Shown here: positions 136 to 8,208 of the stretch, one piece after another
Layout: the number at the start of each line of letters is the position of its first letter
How positions within the stretch are numbered: the first letter of the stretch is position 1
NCBI GenBank assembly: GCA_016124575.1
Contig: WGNM01000044.1
Location: 1 to 64,000, forward strand
DNA from: Cryomorphaceae bacterium
Lineage (GTDB): Bacteria > Bacteroidota > Bacteroidia > Flavobacteriales_D > Sanyastnellaceae
Reading direction: 5' to 3'
Length of the DNA stretch: 64,000 nucleotides
Notes under the pieces: generated by a model
Databases searched by the model: none
What the model was told of the DNA's origin: nothing
Seen by the model: the letters and a program-made list of their open reading frames with translations, nothing else
Made by a program: the position numbers and the translations under genes

Positions 136-510
136 TCAGTCAATTGTATCGAGAGATGCCTGATTAAAAGGGAGGTTCCATTTACGACAATAGCTAAACC
201 AATAAAAGATGTGGCGAAGCATCAACATCTTTTCATTCTTGGATGGATTTGGTAAATGTTGTCTAAATACTTTCGGGTAAATTTCAATTACCTCTTCACT
301 ATTTTGGATGAAGCCAACAAAATTATTTGCTCTTATCTGGTTGTCGTCAAACTGCAGGAATGGTTGATAATGGTTGTCTGTTTCAATTTCTGTTAGTTCA
401 GTATCTGTTTCTACAAACATGCGTTGCTTCCAAATGCTTTTCAGCATTTGGTGTAAAGCATTCTTGTTAACTATGCTCTGCCATTTTCCGTATTCAAAGA
501 GTAGAGCCAT
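136..510 (-). pseudogene. mcrC: Truncated McrC, 5-methylcytosine restriction subunit (N-terminal part only)
   Basis: The 124 residues match the N-terminal domain of McrC: a block reading IRANNFVGFIQ, then EEVIEIYPKVF around residues 60-82, then an aromatic helix (HIFYWFSYCRKW). McrC proteins normally run to about 340-450 residues and carry a PD-(D/E)xK nuclease domain in the C-terminal half. Here the frame ends in TGA just after SLDTID, and nothing downstream restores the nuclease in any frame. It starts 1 bp after the mcrB stop, the usual mcrB-mcrC order. As it stands it could not cut DNA, so I call it a broken gene. A short regulatory form is possible but less likely. Confidence 0.75.
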
Positions 511-511
511 T

Positions 512-2794
512 TTATCTCGGTGATATATCCCAAATGAAATTGGTGGTATTGTAAGTTACATTCCAATTAGTGTCTGCAAATATTTTAGAAACAATATCTG
601 TTTTACCTGAAAAATATTCCATCAACAATGGAACAACTTTGTTTTGCAAAACAATTTGAATTGTTTGTCCTTTCATGAAGTAAGCATGCCCAATTAGATA
701 GTCAGCTGATTTTTTTTCTTTGAAAACTGCTTCATTAACTTTTTTAAGAAGCAAAGATTCTTCTTCATTCAACATCTCATATTCTGGATAATAGCCAATG
801 AACTCAAAACGCCTACGCAAAGCAATATCTATTAAAGCAATTGACTTGTCAGCTGTATTCATTGTGCCTATGATGTAAAGATTTGGCGGTACGCCAAATT
901 CTTTTTCTCCATTTGGCAAAGTAATTTTCAATTCGTTTTCTTCTCCTAATCTTTTATCGTCCTCAAGAAGTGTAATTAATTCGCCAAAAACCTTAGAAAT
1001 ATTAGCCCGATTTATTTCATCAATTATCAAAACAAACCTTTTCAATTCCTCTTCTGCTGAATTTTGGGGTTCAAGCGTTTCGGCAAATTCTTTTAGATGT
1101 TCAACCAATGGATTGTAATAAACACCTAAACCTTCAACACCATAATCCAAACTTCCCTCATAAATTGCTTTGAGATTTTTTACAAGCAAGTCGTGTCCCG
1201 TTCCTCCGCTTTGTTTCGTAAACTTTATTCTTCCCTCATCAATGTCAATTGATGTTACTTTGAACTTGTATCCTTTGCTTTTCATTGGTATTTCAACTTC
1301 CTTTACTTCTTCCTCAATCAATATTGCAAAGAAGGAATTGAAAACGAAGTTAAAATCAATGGTGATTTCTTTCTTGTTTGTTGCTGTTAACCAATTTTGT
1401 TTTGCTCTTTCAGCCAACTGTTTAAAAATTCCTTCACGATTATCAAAACGCAAAGTGCCAGAGGTAACATCGGGAGAAATCCCAACTACAAAATCTTCAT
1501 AGGAATAATTTTGGTGGAAAGTAACGAACTCAATTTGTCCATTTCTTCTTAATTCGTCAAACACTCCTTTATTGACCTTGTGATTATTGAAATTAAATCT
1601 TTCAGGTGAAGTTATCTCAACAGCCTTATCAATGCTATTGTATGTCTTTCCTGTTCCTGGAGGTCCATAAAGGATAATGTTTTTTGCTTGCATGTCAGCT
1701 TTATTATTTGAAGCAGTTGTATTATTTATTAAACTCAAAATAGTTTTGAACTCAGTTTTTGTCGCTGTGAAATTTGTTCCTTGATTACCAACTTTCAAAT
1801 TTTCTAGTCCTTTTGTTCCCTTGATTTTGCTCCAAAGCAAAGGAGTTTCAATTATATTATGTGTGATTTTGATTCCTGCTTTAAGAGGGTTTTTATCTTC
1901 TGTTTTCCATAGGTGTGAATCTTTTGATTGAGTAATGTTTTGTGCTTCACTTGTTACTTCTGCTAGAGAGTAACAACCTGAATTTTTACCTGAAATCCAT
2001 AAAATTACTTTGTCACCTTTTTTTATCTTGTCTTTATGAGCTGAAACAGTCCAATCTTCTAACAAATTATTTTTAATTGCAGTTTCGAAATCAAATACAC
2101 TTGGATTGCCTTGAAATATCCAATAATTGGCATTTCTACTATTCCACAAGTCAATAACCTTATTACGAATGTCTCTATTTTGAACCTTGCAGATTCCTTG
2201 CTGTAATTGATATGAAAATATGTCATCTTCTTCAAGTTCATACCATTCGGAATTTGCGTAGTTGACCCAAGTGTCATACTCAATTTCGAGATTGTCAAAG
2301 GAAGGTTTAAGATTTATGTTACTTGTAACAGGTTTCGGATTCTCATTAATTCTTGCGATTGCCTTTACTTGATGTCCTTCTGTAACAACAATCAAGTCGC
2401 CAATGCTGTATTTTTTGTCCTCAACGCCAATAATAATATTCTCATCTTTAATGTAGTTGTAGAAGCTAGGTTTACCGCTTCCCCAATTGCATCCTAATTT
2501 CCAAATATTGCCTGTGATACTCACTTCATCCATATTTGTGCTTGATTTACTTTTTATTTCAAAACCTAATTCTGTAAAATATTTGTTAGTTGGCTCTCCT
2601 CCACTTCTCTCCCAAATATGCTCGCCATTCATTAATTCATGAGCATAACGCATCACTTCCTTAGGTGGATAGGCTTTACCATTAACAATTACATCAAACT
2701 TTGTCGAAGGTTCAAGAGAAATAGTCTCGCTGTCTATTTTCTTGACTGCATCAAGTATATGTTGTTTAGTTATTTTGTCTGGTTCGAATGCCAT
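512..2794 (-). CDS. mcrB: McrB-type GTPase of a type IV restriction system, with EVE domain
   Basis: This is the motor and recognition subunit of a modification-dependent restriction system. Residues 1-80 resemble the ScoMcrA-like N-terminal head domain (VIVNGKAYPPKEVMRYA). Residues 95-215 look like a PUA-like segment, and 223-355 form an EVE domain (begins NYWIFQGNP; VILWISG strand), a fold that reads modified bases. From 372 on it is an AAA+ McrB GTPase: Walker A GPPGTGKT at 377-384, Walker B LIIDEINRA near 590, and the McrB signature MNTADKS near 642, followed by an arginine-rich sensor (ALRRRFEF). The 760-residue frame is intact. The partner nuclease McrC, immediately downstream, is truncated, so the system probably no longer restricts DNA. 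Upstream sequence is A-rich (agaaaaagaaattaaga before ATG). Confidence 0.9.
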   Translation of the reverse strand: MAFEPDKITKQHILDAVKKIDSETISLEPSTKFDVIVNGKAYPPKEVMRYAHELMNGEHIWERSGGEPTNKYFTELGFEIKSKSSTNMDEVSITGNIWKLGCNWGSGKPSFYNYIKDENIIIGVEDKKYSIGDLIVVTEGHQVKAIARINENPKPVTSNINLKPSFDNLEIEYDTWVNYANSEWYELEEDDIFSYQLQQGICKVQNRDIRNKVIDLWNSRNANYWIFQGNPSVFDFETAIKNNLLEDWTVSAHKDKIKKGDKVILWISGKNSGCYSLAEVTSEAQNITQSKDSHLWKTEDKNPLKAGIKITHNIIETPLLWSKIKGTKGLENLKVGNQGTNFTATKTEFKTILSLINNTTASNNKADMQAKNIILYGPPGTGKTYNSIDKAVEITSPERFNFNNHKVNKGVFDELRRNGQIEFVTFHQNYSYEDFVVGISPDVTSGTLRFDNREGIFKQLAERAKQNWLTATNKKEITIDFNFVFNSFFAILIEEEVKEVEIPMKSKGYKFKVTSIDIDEGRIKFTKQSGGTGHDLLVKNLKAIYEGSLDYGVEGLGVYYNPLVEHLKEFAETLEPQNSAEEELKRFVLIIDEINRANISKVFGELITLLEDDKRLGEENELKITLPNGEKEFGVPPNLYIIGTMNTADKSIALIDIALRRRFEFIGYYPEYEMLNEEESLLLKKVNEAVFKEKKSADYLIGHAYFMKGQTIQIVLQNKVVPLLMEYFSGKTDIVSKIFADTNWNVTYNTTNFIWDISPR

Positions 2795-2869: not shown

Positions 2870-4255
2870 TTAGTTTTCGATTATTCCCTGGGGGTTGTAT
2901 GTCAGCAAGATCATCTTCCATTCTAAAATGCGTTTTTTCCGCATAACATCGATCTCTTTTATTGCGGCATCCAAATAGGTGTTCTCGCGTCGGTTGATGA
3001 TGAAGAGTGTGCTCTCTCCCAATCGCAGTTTGGTGCCTTCCATAAACAACAATTCCCCTGCATTGGCTGCGTTTTCTCTTGCCAATCGGCTGAGGTCGTT
3101 CACCTGCAATACCTGCGATTCAAGCATCAAGCGCTTCTGCATTAAATCTCGCAATTTCATGTCGACATATAAATCGGCTTGGTCGAGCTTAAACTGCGCC
3201 TTGCGAATATTCGCACGTTCTTTACGACTTAAAATGGGCACTTTTGCCGACAGTCCGATAACGCTGTTGTTTCCCGCCAGCGACAATTGGTCGGCCCTGC
3301 TGATCGCTTTTAAACTCAAGTTAACATCGGGTTTTAGTTGCTCACGGGCAAGCAATAAATCCAGTCGTGCTTCTCTGCTCTTCAATTCAAGCATTTCAAC
3401 AGATGGGTGCAACCAAGTCAAATCATTCGATAATGCACGAGAAATATGCAGGTCAGCAGCTGATTGCCATGAGGTGTCGGGCTCGGCTCCTCCTGTAAAC
3501 TGGTCGAACATGTCGTTCTCCCAAATCAAGGTGCCTGCAAGTCTAAACCACTCCTGAAAATCCATCAAGGCTTCGGTGTACTCGGTTTGCCTTTTCACGT
3601 ATTGGTTGTGGGCTTCCAAGGTGTCCATAGCAGTAAAAACGCCCAGTTGATATTGTCCAACTGTTTGGTTATATCGCTCAAGGGCTAGCGCTACGATGTC
3701 GTTTCTCAATTTCAGTGCACGTGAAGCTGCCACCCAATTCCAGTACACTTCTGCACCAAACAACACCATGTCGCGTTGTGCATTTTCAAGGGTACGAACA
3801 CTTCTATCGGCAGATATGCGTGCTTGGCGCAATCGGGTCTGATCTGGTGTCCGAAAGAAACCATCGACAAGGGGAACTGAAATTTCAGCAAATGCCAATC
3901 CTACCTCTGGCGTGAATGTCTCGGGGTTGATGTAGGTGCCGATGCTCCTGTTGTATCCAGCTTTCAAATTGATGCCTGGCTGCAACTGCCATTCAAGGGC
4001 TGCATCACGATAGTCGTAATATGAGGTGCCATCGAATGTTTTACTGGCATATTCTCCTTTCAAATTGGGGTCGAAAGCTGCACGGGCTCCCATGGCTTCG
4101 GCTTCTGCTATGCCAACATCCATGGTGCGAATACCAAGCTGCGGGTGGTAGCGCAACAGTTGCTTCAAAAAGTCGATCTCTTCAACCTTCAAAGTGTCCT
4201 GTGCCATCCCCGCGAAGGGAAGTAAAAATAGTATGGTAAGGATCCTACTCATCAT
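2870..4255 (-). CDS. TolC-family outer membrane efflux protein
   Basis: A 461-residue outer membrane channel component. It has an N-terminal signal peptide (MMSRILTILFLLPFAGMAQ) and two long helical halves typical of the OEP family, for example LRQARISADRSVRTLENAQRD near the middle and a second copy near DLLLAREQLKPDVNLSLKA. TolC-type proteins trimerise to form an outer membrane barrel with a periplasmic tunnel and dock onto HlyD-type adaptors. The ATG overlaps the stop of the HlyD gene by 4 bp (ATGA), so the two are translationally coupled in one operon with the ABC-like gene. The cargo cannot be deduced: no peptidase domain, toxin or precursor peptide lies next to it. Confidence 0.88.
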   Translation of the reverse strand: MMSRILTILFLLPFAGMAQDTLKVEEIDFLKQLLRYHPQLGIRTMDVGIAEAEAMGARAAFDPNLKGEYASKTFDGTSYYDYRDAALEWQLQPGINLKAGYNRSIGTYINPETFTPEVGLAFAEISVPLVDGFFRTPDQTRLRQARISADRSVRTLENAQRDMVLFGAEVYWNWVAASRALKLRNDIVALALERYNQTVGQYQLGVFTAMDTLEAHNQYVKRQTEYTEALMDFQEWFRLAGTLIWENDMFDQFTGGAEPDTSWQSAADLHISRALSNDLTWLHPSVEMLELKSREARLDLLLAREQLKPDVNLSLKAISRADQLSLAGNNSVIGLSAKVPILSRKERANIRKAQFKLDQADLYVDMKLRDLMQKRLMLESQVLQVNDLSRLARENAANAGELLFMEGTKLRLGESTLFIINRRENTYLDAAIKEIDVMRKKRILEWKMILLTYNPQGIIEN

Positions 4256-5607
4256 TTGTCGCCTTTTTCATTTCCTGGCACGTCTTCCATGGTATAGTAT
4301 TCTGGTGGGAAACCATTCAACTGACGCCACAATTCGTAACCCAGCGGGACGTCTTTTAAAAGTATCATTCCAAAGGCTCCGGACCCAATGCTGAGGGGCT
4401 GTGGCCAATTACCTTCCAATGTGTCGGGGACAATGATTACACGGTATTTACCTTTGTTGTTGATCACCTGATCCACACTTACAACTTTACCTCCAAAGGT
4501 GCCCACAGTAGCGCTCGGCCATCCGCTAAATACCAATGCAGGCCAACCGTCAAACTGCAAGCGCACATACGAGTCTTGGTGCATGAGGGGCACGTCCATA
4601 GCGCTTACATAAAGTTCCACTGCTTCGCTGAATTCAAGGGGCTGAATGGTGCAAACAGCCGATCCAGACTTCACAATCTCGCCAACACCGCTTTGAATAA
4701 TGCTCACAACTCGTCCGTCTTGTGGCGCCAATACCACACGACCTGTCTCACGAAGTGTGTAGTTTGAAAGTGAGTTTTCAAGTTTGGTTAGCTCTTGCAA
4801 TGCCTCTTGCATAACGGCTTCTGTTGTTGCCTCTTCGCTTTCTATTTTAGCAATCTTATCGGCATATTCAGCGGTTTTGCGCGATACTTCAAGTTTAGAC
4901 ATGGCATACGCTTGCAAATTGGCTGCGAGATCGTTGCTGGCTTTAACCAATTTGGCTCGCGCCTGCTGATCACTCAAGCTGCGCGATTCGAAGTCTGTAG
5001 TCGATATCAATCCATCGCGGTAAAGCTCTTGTGCGCGCTTCAATCGCTCGTTGTTTATCTCCAAATTCAAGCGCTCTTGCTCAACGGTGGCGCTATCTGC
5101 CGATACTTTCTGATACCCTTGCAACACCTTTAGCTTCGCTTGCTCAATTTCATTGTCTCTGGTAGCAACCAATGCCGCTTCTTGACGCATGAGAGCCGAT
5201 AGTTTGTCGCTGTATGCAACGATACCAGCACGCTTTGATTCAATCAAAAACTGGGTTCGCTCCACGAGCCGTGGATCCAAATATTCTGCCTTCACTTCTT
5301 CGAGGACAAGCAAGGTGTCGCCAGCGCTTACTACCTGTCCTTCGTAAACGCCCCAATAAGCCACACGTCCGTCTATCATGATGTTCACCTCTTGCGGACG
5401 TTTATCGGGAAAGCGGCTGATCACGGTTCCATTTGCACCCACGTTTTGTGTCCACGGCACAAACATGGCTGCGACAATGAAAATGAAGACGACAATGAAG
5501 TTCCGGACAAGTTTTTTGCCTCTTTTTTCTGGATGCAAGCGCTGCATCGACGCTGTTTTATTGCCTGTCTCCGGCAGCGTGCTTGGTGATGAACTTATGT
5601 TCAGCAT
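4252..5607 (-). CDS. HlyD-family membrane fusion (adaptor) protein
   Basis: A periplasmic adaptor linking an inner membrane transporter to the TolC-type channel encoded next. Residues 1-34 are cytoplasmic and basic, one membrane helix follows (FIVVFIFIVAAMFVPW), then a split biotinyl/lipoyl domain (VYEGQVVSAGDTLLVLEE ... VVLAPQDGRVVSIIQSG) surrounds a long coiled coil at about 130-290, and a beta-barrel domain follows. This is the standard HlyD order. I place the start at the ATG at 5607, 6 bp after the stop of the ABC-like gene. A TTG two codons upstream is also possible. Confidence 0.88.
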   Translation of the reverse strand: MLNISSSPSTLPETGNKTASMQRLHPEKRGKKLVRNFIVVFIFIVAAMFVPWTQNVGANGTVISRFPDKRPQEVNIMIDGRVAYWGVYEGQVVSAGDTLLVLEEVKAEYLDPRLVERTQFLIESKRAGIVAYSDKLSALMRQEAALVATRDNEIEQAKLKVLQGYQKVSADSATVEQERLNLEINNERLKRAQELYRDGLISTTDFESRSLSDQQARAKLVKASNDLAANLQAYAMSKLEVSRKTAEYADKIAKIESEEATTEAVMQEALQELTKLENSLSNYTLRETGRVVLAPQDGRVVSIIQSGVGEIVKSGSAVCTIQPLEFSEAVELYVSAMDVPLMHQDSYVRLQFDGWPALVFSGWPSATVGTFGGKVVSVDQVINNKGKYRVIIVPDTLEGNWPQPLSIGSGAFGMILLKDVPLGYELWRQLNGFPPEYYTMEDVPGNEKGDK

Positions 5608-5613
5608 GGTCAA

Positions 5614-7272
5614 TTACGATTGTTGGGTTAGTTCACCTTTTTGAAAACAGTAATGTTTGTCGAAAAACTTTGAATCTGGAATGCTCTCGCTGAAGAAAAT
5701 AACAGCCCATGGCTGGAAAGGATCTAGCAAGTACTCAAGCATTTTCTTGTGACGAATGGGGTCCGATGGCAACTGCTCTGCGTCGATCAATAGAACATCT
5801 GGCTCGTCGATGAGGTTGCGGGCAAGCAGTATTCCTTTTGTAAGGGTTGATGATAAAAGGTTAGAGTAGGGGATGACGCGGGTAACTTCTGCCTCTGGCA
5901 GGATGCGAATGTCTTCCATCAAACCAATTTCGTTTAAAACACGCTCTACGCGATCAAAAGGTATGTGCGGTCTTCCTGCCTCAATGTTGTCGATGATGGT
6001 GCCAGAAAACAACTCGTCGCGCCCCCAAAGTTCGCCTATTTCTTCGCGCAGGCGATCCAACGAAATAGACTTCAATGATCTTCCTTTGAAGGATAGATGT
6101 CCTTGAAAGCCTGTTTCTCGCGCGGTGAGTAGCTGCATCATGGTGCGCACGAACAGTGGATGCTCATATTGAATAAACACGCGCTCACCTTGAGATATCG
6201 TGAACTTTTTGCAATAGATGGGAACAGAATATGCCGAACCAATCATTGATAATTCTTCGGCTACGAAAAGCTCATTCGAATTGCTCAATCCTTCTGTGCC
6301 ATGCTCTTCTTCCAGCGGTAAATCGGTCACATGACCTACTTTGTCGAGCGCTGTTAGCAAGTCGTACACGCTGTCGAGGTTCATGATGATTTTTTCTACC
6401 GACCCGGTAATCATCAAGATCACAATCTCCGCAGCCACGAACTGCCCAATTCCTATTTGGTTATCGATAACCAGTAAACTACCCAAAACCAGAAGTCCGG
6501 CCGCTATCAACAATTTGAAAAATACCAGCGCTCCATAGTGACGCACCAAAACCTTAAAGTGCGAATCGCGAGCATCGAGGTATTTTTCTGTCATGCCGTC
6601 GGTTTCCGAAATTGCCAAATTCGACTTTGGTGTCATCCGAAATGCTTCCACATTGGCTGCAACTTCTTCAAGCCATCCTGCAACCTTGTATTTGTAACTC
6701 GACTCTTTTAAACTTGTCTCCAATCCTTGACCCATGGTGATACGAATCAAGACAATTAACAAGAGAATCAATATAAAATCGAACAAAATGAAGAATGGGT
6801 GGTAAAGGGCAAGCAGCACCAAGCCAAAGAATACACTTAAAATAGCGGTCGAGAAATCGATAATCAGCTTACTGATGCTCTTTTGAATTGTGATGACGTC
6901 GAAAAAACGGTTCATCAACTCAGCAGGATTTCGTTTTTCCCATTGATTGAAAACAATGCGTGGCAAGCGCATCGCAAACTCCAACGACGATTTGGCGAAA
7001 ATACGCTGCTGAAGATTTTCAACCAACCATTGCTGACGTATTTGCAACCATCCGCTCAAAAGTATACCTATCAATACGAAAGATACCAGTACGACCCACG
7101 AAGTGCTGATTCGGCCTGCCTGAATGAAACTTACAATCGACTGAATACCAAGAGGTAACGAAAGCCCAATCAATCCCCCAAAAGTGGCTATGGTGAAAAT
7201 GCGGACCAATAAGGTACGTTCAGACTGCAATAAGCGGCCTAATCGTTTCCAAGGTGTGAAAATAGTATTCAT
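5614..7272 (-). CDS. ABC-exporter-like protein with a degenerate ATPase domain
   Basis: Residues 1-310 form an ABC transporter type 1 membrane domain with several hydrophobic helices (20-50, 57-75, 140-180, 245-290). Residues 335-552 have the fold order of an ABC ATPase but every catalytic motif is gone. The Walker A position (368-377) reads IQYEHPLFVRT with no glycine-rich loop, lysine or serine. The Q-loop glutamine is missing (ELWGRDELFSGTI). The LSGGQ signature is LLSSTLTKG (472-480). Walker B keeps DVLLIDA but has alanine in place of the catalytic glutamate. The H-loop histidine is replaced (FFSES). The frame is intact and co-transcribed with HlyD and TolC genes, so it is likely functional without hydrolysing ATP, perhaps with another ATPase or as a scaffold. 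Confidence 0.85.
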   Translation of the reverse strand: MNTIFTPWKRLGRLLQSERTLLVRIFTIATFGGLIGLSLPLGIQSIVSFIQAGRISTSWVVLVSFVLIGILLSGWLQIRQQWLVENLQQRIFAKSSLEFAMRLPRIVFNQWEKRNPAELMNRFFDVITIQKSISKLIIDFSTAILSVFFGLVLLALYHPFFILFDFILILLLIVLIRITMGQGLETSLKESSYKYKVAGWLEEVAANVEAFRMTPKSNLAISETDGMTEKYLDARDSHFKVLVRHYGALVFFKLLIAAGLLVLGSLLVIDNQIGIGQFVAAEIVILMITGSVEKIIMNLDSVYDLLTALDKVGHVTDLPLEEEHGTEGLSNSNELFVAEELSMIGSAYSVPIYCKKFTISQGERVFIQYEHPLFVRTMMQLLTARETGFQGHLSFKGRSLKSISLDRLREEIGELWGRDELFSGTIIDNIEAGRPHIPFDRVERVLNEIGLMEDIRILPEAEVTRVIPYSNLLSSTLTKGILLARNLIDEPDVLLIDAEQLPSDPIRHKKMLEYLLDPFQPWAVIFFSESIPDSKFFDKHYCFQKGELTQQS

Positions 7273-7355
7273 CTATTGGTTTTATTAGGCTGAATAACAG
7301 ACTGTTGATGCGTTTGTTGTTCCAAAAAGGTATATAAGTATATCATAATTACTCG

Positions 7356-7376
7356 CAAATATAATAGTATTACTAT
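7356..7376 (-). promoter_or_regulatory. Predicted promoter box and palindrome upstream of the export operon
   Basis: On the minus strand TATATTTG (7356-7363) fits the Bacteroidota -7 consensus TAnnTTTG and lies about 85 bp before the ATG of the ABC-like gene. Directly upstream is a 13-bp palindrome, ATAGTATTACTAT (7364-7376), with one central base, sitting between the -7 and the expected -33 element. That is a likely place for a repressor operator. Both are pattern matches only. Confidence 0.45.
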
Positions 7377-7416: not shown

Positions 7417-8208
7417 TCACGTCACCTTCACTTTTTTCATCATCCTGCGCAGCAGAGCAGGAAAGAATCGCTTGATGTAAACAGCAAGAATTTCCTTTCC
7501 ACCAATGTAGATTTCGGCTTTTTGGTTTGAAACGCCATGCACCAGTTTGCGGGCACAATCAGCGGCCGACATGCCGGCACCTGTTGCCTGATCCATGGTG
7601 CCTTGTTTTTCGCCTGTGCCAATCATTGCGTTTTTTGAAATGTTGGTATGTATAAACCCCGGACAAACGAGTGTAACTGAGATGTTGTCTTTGTGATGTT
7701 CAGCACGCAGGGCATCAAAATAGCCGTGCAGCGCGTGTTTAGCTCCGCAGTACCCGCTGCGCATTGGTGAAGAAAAGACACCCATCAAACTGGTAATAAC
7801 AACGAATTGTCCACTCTGGTTTTTCACGAAATGAGGCAGCAAAGCAAGGGTCAGCGCAATTGTCCCGAAATAGTCAATTTCCATCACTTGTCGGTTCACA
7901 TCCATTGCGGTATCTATAGCCAATGAACGCTGGCTGATGCCGCCGCTGTGCACCATGACATCTATTTTCGATACCATGCGCAATGCGTCTTCAACTTTTG
8001 AGTTCATTTCTTCCGACTTGGCGAGGTCGAGTGGAAGAACGAAAACGTTGGTAGGGTTTGGCATTTCGGCACGTGCGACTTCAAGCGACTCTTTGTTTCT
8101 TGAAGAAAGAATGAGGGTGGCCCCTTGCTTTGCGAACTCGTGAGCAGTAGCCTTGCCAATGCCTGATGATGCTCCCGTAATCCAAACCGTTTTGTTTTCG
8201 TATTTCAT
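7417..8208 (-). CDS. Short-chain dehydrogenase/reductase (SDR)
   Basis: A 263-residue classical SDR oxidoreductase, NAD(P)-dependent. The cofactor loop is TGASSGIG (residues 11-18), followed by the catalytic serine region (VVITSLMG) and the YxxxK pair in YCGAKHALHGY. The overall pattern (HSGG in place of NNAG, then the C-terminal helix KRFFPALLRRMMKK) is similar to the SDR7B-like group thought to act on lipids or retinoid-like substrates, but the substrate here is unknown. The C-terminal basic amphipathic segment suggests membrane association. It lies downstream of gyrB, separated from it by a strong terminator, so it is probably transcribed on its own. Confidence 0.85.
   Translation of the reverse strand: MKYENKTVWITGASSGIGKATAHEFAKQGATLILSSRNKESLEVARAEMPNPTNVFVLPLDLAKSEEMNSKVEDALRMVSKIDVMVHSGGISQRSLAIDTAMDVNRQVMEIDYFGTIALTLALLPHFVKNQSGQFVVITSLMGVFSSPMRSGYCGAKHALHGYFDALRAEHHKDNISVTLVCPGFIHTNISKNAMIGTGEKQGTMDQATGAGMSAADCARKLVHGVSNQKAEIYIGGKEILAVYIKRFFPALLRRMMKKVKVT

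Follow-up and report, generated by a model that had tools for sequence, protein, structure and literature searches.

How can a tripartite exporter work when the ABC protein at its inner-membrane end no longer carries the motifs for ATP binding and hydrolysis? This question is raised by a gene in the 64,000-nucleotide stretch of DNA analysed here (the window), which an earlier note had read as a pseudo-ATPase, driving or gating export, that might need an external ATPase, form a heterodimer or use another energy source. The gene and its surroundings comprise the following features:

5614..7272, minus strand: ABC-exporter half with a motif-less nucleotide-binding domain (NBD); 552 amino acids, transmembrane domain (TMD) at about residues 1-320, NBD fold at about residues 330-552
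4252..5607, minus strand: HlyD-family periplasmic adaptor; ATG at 5607, open reading frame readable from a TTG at 5613
2870..4255, minus strand: TolC-like outer membrane factor (PF02321, 107 bits)
7355..7365 (approximate), minus strand: possible Bacteroidetes-type -7 box upstream of the operon, spotted by eye, TATATTTG

The stop codon of the ABC gene (5616-5614) is separated by 6 nucleotides from the HlyD ATG at 5607, and the HlyD stop and the TolC start overlap by four bases (ATGA, 4255-4252), so that the three genes make up one tightly coupled operon. The open frame and the coupling to HlyD and TolC genes noted earlier are thus borne out by the sequence, and the same type I secretion gene set (ABC protein, HlyD-type adaptor and outer membrane factor) is found in nearly all relatives. 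Directly upstream of the operon lies a short-chain dehydrogenase gene (7417-8208, minus strand); the whole window clade has a gene of similar size at this position, SDR-like on reading in L031 and L033, and lacks the TetR gene that other relatives carry at the operon-upstream site. Downstream of the TolC gene, 512-2794 (minus strand) encodes a 760-residue P-loop protein with weak matches to restriction enzymes (PADLOC REase_II, McrB-like appearance), followed by a short open reading frame (136-510, minus strand) with which it possibly forms a restriction system.

The open reading frame at 5614-7272 was read from an ATG over 552 codons in the ORF table. Its product matches ABC_membrane (PF00664) with 32.6 bits against a cut-off of 28, while its ABC_tran score of 22.2 bits remains under the cut-off of 25; in NCBIfam the product scores highest with TIGR03796, at 96 bits where 853 are required. 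An AlphaFold2 model, for which 31 relatives were included in the input, is a complete ABC-exporter half with a folded NBD (mean pLDDT 82.9), and in a fold search it matched HlyB-HlyD, PCAT1, TmrAB, BmrCD and MsbA across the whole chain, with Z up to 28.7 for a full-length match and 12-20% identity. The architecture is that of an ABC exporter half-transporter (type IV fold), in which a six-helix exporter TMD is followed by an NBD fold. Motif positions were set by alignment with relatives and then located on the DNA, all on the minus strand:

6142..6171, minus strand: Walker A position, QYEHPLFVRT (residues 368-377) instead of GxxxxGK[ST]
6007..6024, minus strand: Q-loop position, GRDELF (residues 417-422), without Gln
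5833..5859, minus strand: signature position, LLSSTLTKG (residues 472-480) instead of LSGGQ
5761..5796, minus strand: Walker B / D-loop position, VLLIDAEQLPSD, Asp kept and catalytic Glu replaced by Ala
5680..5697, minus strand: H-loop position, FFSESI (residues 526-531), without His
6421..6435, minus strand: TM6 segment AAEIV with E282, candidate ion- or substrate-coupling carboxylate
6880..6930, minus strand: intracellular loop 1, a hallmark of the family, NPAELMNRFFDVITIQK

In this alignment the cassette motifs of an ABC exporter half (Walker A, signature, catalytic Glu and H-loop) are absent from the protein, as is the Gln of the Q-loop. At the Walker A position the final Thr is the sole residue kept, and comparable substitutes (YEHP/YSNP..VRT) occur throughout the window clade. 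Walker B reads VLLIDAEQ (residues 493-500); the stretch DAEQLPSD is identical in L001-L004, which likewise have GRD in common. All five losses named in the earlier note were therefore confirmed, within an exporter NBD fold that structure prediction and fold search place beyond the TMD, but its stronger wording, that no nucleotide-binding motif is left at all, goes too far since the Walker B Asp survives.

Is this gene merely decaying? Close relatives are present in five other genomes from three genera of the same family (62-98% identity), and the motif losses recur, with conserved substitutes, in all four distinct representatives of these (genera g1, g12 and g15); the window clade has a support of 100 in the tree. 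Compared with the congener G001, the NBD has a dN of 0.013 and a dS of 0.63, resulting in a dN/dS of 0.021, next to 0.017 for the TMD, 0.036 for HlyD and 0.018 for TolC. These values point to strong purifying selection on the motif-less NBD, and since its dN/dS is near those of the TMD and TolC, it would do something that is independent of a canonical nucleotide site. A pseudo-ATPase in an HlyD-TolC operon, as proposed before, is thus kept by selection, and the opposite outcome, intact homologues in sister strains together with a high dN/dS, was not what we found. Ordinary decay, either as a pseudogene in the making or as a weakly active ATPase with unusual residues, is very improbable: in nearly half of the full-length relatives Walker A is kept and ED stands for DE, so that residual hydrolysis is possible there, but in the window protein Walker A is absent and the catalytic acid is Ala, its NBD evolves at a dN/dS of 0.02, and the losses are common to three genera with intact frames. 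A recent pseudogene is ruled out by the dN/dS and the shared losses, and a sequencing or frame artefact by intact frames in many genera. Individual irregularities do occur. In G001, a low-coverage metagenome-assembled genome, an insertion of about 47 bases (L034/L051, about 3190-3240) splits the ABC gene and the TolC frame is broken as well, both probably through assembly errors, and L003 (genome G031) carries an in-frame TGA that would end the ABC-like protein roughly a dozen codons early, past the NBD motif positions.

The window protein belongs to a family found in 40 of 60 near-relative genomes, in 96 of 395 genomes taken from across the phylum (single-sequence query) and in 174 of 345 genomes of the class Bacteroidia (profile A1, E <= 1e-60). 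The family is therefore widespread, occurring in about half of the sampled Bacteroidia genomes, with members in Flavobacterium, Ferruginibacter, Segetibacter, Neolewinella and Pedobacter among others named by genus. The arrangement that the earlier note had called new, a pseudo-ATPase within an exporter operon, does exist, but its scope is wider than one locus, the window protein being the extreme of this family. The gene order TMD/ABC, HlyD, TolC is nearly invariant among relatives, often with a TetR gene directly upstream. We aligned 182 distinct family proteins, of which 115 have an NBD, and took a motif census from this one MAFFT alignment with simple patterns. Among the 115 full-length relatives, the LSxGQ signature is kept in 3 and the H-loop His in 5, while Walker A is kept in 98 and lost in 17; at Walker B, ED instead of DE is seen most often. 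Walker A, DE and H-loop are kept together solely in L194-L198, deep branches that lie outside the class, and among these a canonical-looking signature is present in L197-L198 only. The tree contains several independent Walker A losses, and together with the census it indicates that erosion began with the hydrolysis motifs and reached nucleotide binding later, several times. Many full-length members (e.g. L052-L070), with Walker A kept and the ED swap, possibly bind nucleotide and hydrolyse it poorly. Some members of 700-770 residues, including L189-L196, have an N-terminal domain of about 165 residues without a Pfam match.

Erosion has gone further in other relatives. In the groups f21 and f14, the latter corresponding to Sphingobacteriaceae because it includes Pedobacter (locus L278 of genome G883, f14, is identical to Pedobacter contig L090), the ABC-like protein is often a TMD alone of about 335 residues (about 330-345); HlyD starts close after this gene or overlaps it slightly, and the TolC gene comes next. 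By open-frame length, some 78 such genomes belong to f21, some 54 to f14 and 1 to f20 (about 130 in total), and 62 distinct TMD-only proteins were checked by sequence. A representative scores above the PF00664 cut-off, has no ABC_tran match and reaches at best 50 bits in NCBIfam, where no model fits the TMD-HlyD-TolC family. In the tree, the TMD-only proteins form one clade (support 99) nested within full-length members that carry eroded NBDs; this clade lies near members with the N-terminal domain of about 165 residues, yet does not have that domain itself. Separately, within the window's own family, five genomes (G004, G008, G071, G072 and G073; genera g4 and g8) encode an NBD-less TMD fused in one chain to HlyD, in open frames of 749-776 residues. 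These fusions lie near genus g20, whose NBD is almost unrecognisable, the G008 fusion having a very long branch and an unreliable placement. By these comparisons the whole NBD has been lost at least twice, with TMD, HlyD and TolC kept. Because the NBD is eroded across the family and deleted in about 130 genomes in which the pump is kept, ATP hydrolysis by its own NBD is most likely not needed for the system to work.

The missing motor might be borrowed from a gene at another place in the genome, either an intact ABC half-transporter as partner of the pseudo-half or a stand-alone NBD as partner of the TMD. Heterodimers with one degenerate and one consensus site (TM287/288, TmrAB and BmrCD) are among the top fold matches, the source genome has many NBDs besides four further PF00664 proteins, and intracellular loop 1, the NBD docking site, is at least as conserved in TMD-only proteins as in full-length ones, which would fit docking of a separate NBD or of another partner. 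As a sign that no NBD docks, relaxation of the coupling helices gives a mixed picture, with loop 1 more and loop 2 slightly less conserved in TMD-only proteins. However, inspection of about 75 neighbourhoods around full-length or NBD-less members revealed no second half-transporter gene in the operon, the one nearby match (L060) being on the opposite strand, and among 25 NBD-less loci a profile search that recovered 30 of 30 controls detected an NBD gene within about 6 kb in one genus only, where it lies several genes downstream. Of the four other PF00664 proteins in the source genome, two have the complete set of four consensus motifs and the remaining two have those that the patterns resolved, so these halves look self-sufficient; for 14 near-complete TMD-only genomes, most of the other PF00664 proteins listed have frames that could accommodate an NBD of their own. 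Moreover, the pseudo-NBD could not complete the composite site of a partner because it has no LSGGQ, and, folded and in place, it would hinder docking of an NBD in trans. The heterodimer suggested in the earlier note hence finds no adjoining partner half gene and no signature that the pseudo-NBD would lend to a partner's consensus site. Taken together, we regard a borrowed motor as unlikely. The family resembles TM287/288, TmrAB and BmrCD in its fold and in the degenerate catalytic residues of one NBD, but differs from them in that an adjacent partner half is absent, the signature is lost too and the NBD is dispensable in relatives.

We tentatively favour, although at somewhat less than even odds, an ATP-independent exporter that is probably driven by an ion gradient in the manner of LmrA-MD and MsbA-MD. 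In this proposal the window protein, descended from an ABC exporter of the type I secretion/peptide type, would form the inner-membrane part of a tripartite TMD-HlyD-TolC exporter. The motif-less NBD fold would survive as a cytoplasmic clamp without catalytic activity, holding or gating the TMD dimer, and transport would proceed through this dimer into the HlyD-TolC duct, powered most likely by ion-motive force, in line with reports on LmrA and MsbA stripped of their NBDs. The candidate coupling residue is the invariant glutamate E282 of TM6, which 99-100% of the relatives have, whether full-length or TMD-only. It is present in the near-intact outgroup too, so it did not arise with the loss of the NBD. 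An acidic TM6 residue is likewise a feature of an LmrA-MD-like ion-coupled TMD, E282 being a putative counterpart of E314 of LmrA. For the NBD-less LmrA-MD and MsbA-MD, proton-coupled transport has been reported from experiments in cells or proteoliposomes; its pH-driven part required E314 of TM6 in the case of LmrA (PMC4979069, PMC2704374, PMC6155054). In one assay in which full-length LmrA responded to ATP, LmrA-MD is reported to have given no current, so that NBD-less transport can be weaker (PMC6155054). Besides the conserved loop 1, a point counter to this reading is that most full-length relatives keep Walker A, so that nucleotide binding may still be possible in them. Many relatives encode a TetR regulator beside the operon, which hints at a small toxic or signalling compound as the substrate.

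The system might also carry out no active transport at all, the TMD dimer forming a pore in the inner membrane, passive or gated, or else a scaffold on which HlyD and TolC assemble for another pump. All catalytic parts may be lost without loss of the operon, the TMD-HlyD fusion amounts to a tight structural coupling, and CFTR is a precedent for an ABC protein turned channel. Nevertheless, an ungated inner-membrane pore opening onto TolC should be harmful, and the TMD has conserved all its signature residues, among them polar ones within the membrane or close to it, in keeping with a functional translocation path. We consider such a pore or scaffold rather improbable, if slightly less so than a borrowed motor. 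With ion-gradient-driven export as the preferred reading, the family may represent, and here we are a little more hesitant still, a natural lineage in which an ABC exporter turned into an ATP-independent, ion-gradient-driven transporter within a TolC-type tripartite system, losing first hydrolysis, then nucleotide binding and then, at least twice, the whole NBD, even with a bare TMD-HlyD fusion as a result.

Judged from its sequences, the family is built like a type I secretion or tripartite exporter, yet is without the defining features of an ABC ATPase. With type I secretion and peptide ABC exporters (HlyB, LssB, PCAT1 and NHLM ABC) the window protein shares the whole-length fold (HlyB-HlyD 8dck, PCAT1), the best profile matches and the HlyD and TolC context, but it stays far under their family cut-offs, has no catalytic motifs and has relatives without an NBD. 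Type I secretion further involves a functional ATPase that exports an RTX or leader-peptide substrate encoded next to it, and the ATPase motifs for this are missing from the window protein. Like LmrA-MD and MsbA-MD, the family offers an ABC-exporter TMD without an NBD and, as in LmrA, a TM6 carboxylate, the TMD-only relatives being their natural counterparts; the window protein itself, unlike these, still carries a folded NBD. LmrA-MD and MsbA-MD are engineered truncations of single pumps, whereas the NBD-less state described here is natural, conserved and tied to HlyD and TolC, with ion coupling as a proposed feature. Full-text searches, in a library with few subscription papers, turned up the engineered NBD-less exporters but no account of natural ones of the TMD-HlyD-TolC type, and the family is apparently undescribed so far.

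ABC exporters are defined by their ATPase, and here a widespread family keeps the exporter and its HlyD-TolC duct while discarding the motor. The long-disputed ability of an ABC TMD to transport on its own, so far approached with the engineered LmrA-MD and MsbA-MD, becomes testable with natural proteins, and a single operon type spans graded evolutionary stages between near-intact and NBD-less members. For a large set of Bacteroidota genes, the label 'ATP-binding protein' would be wrong.
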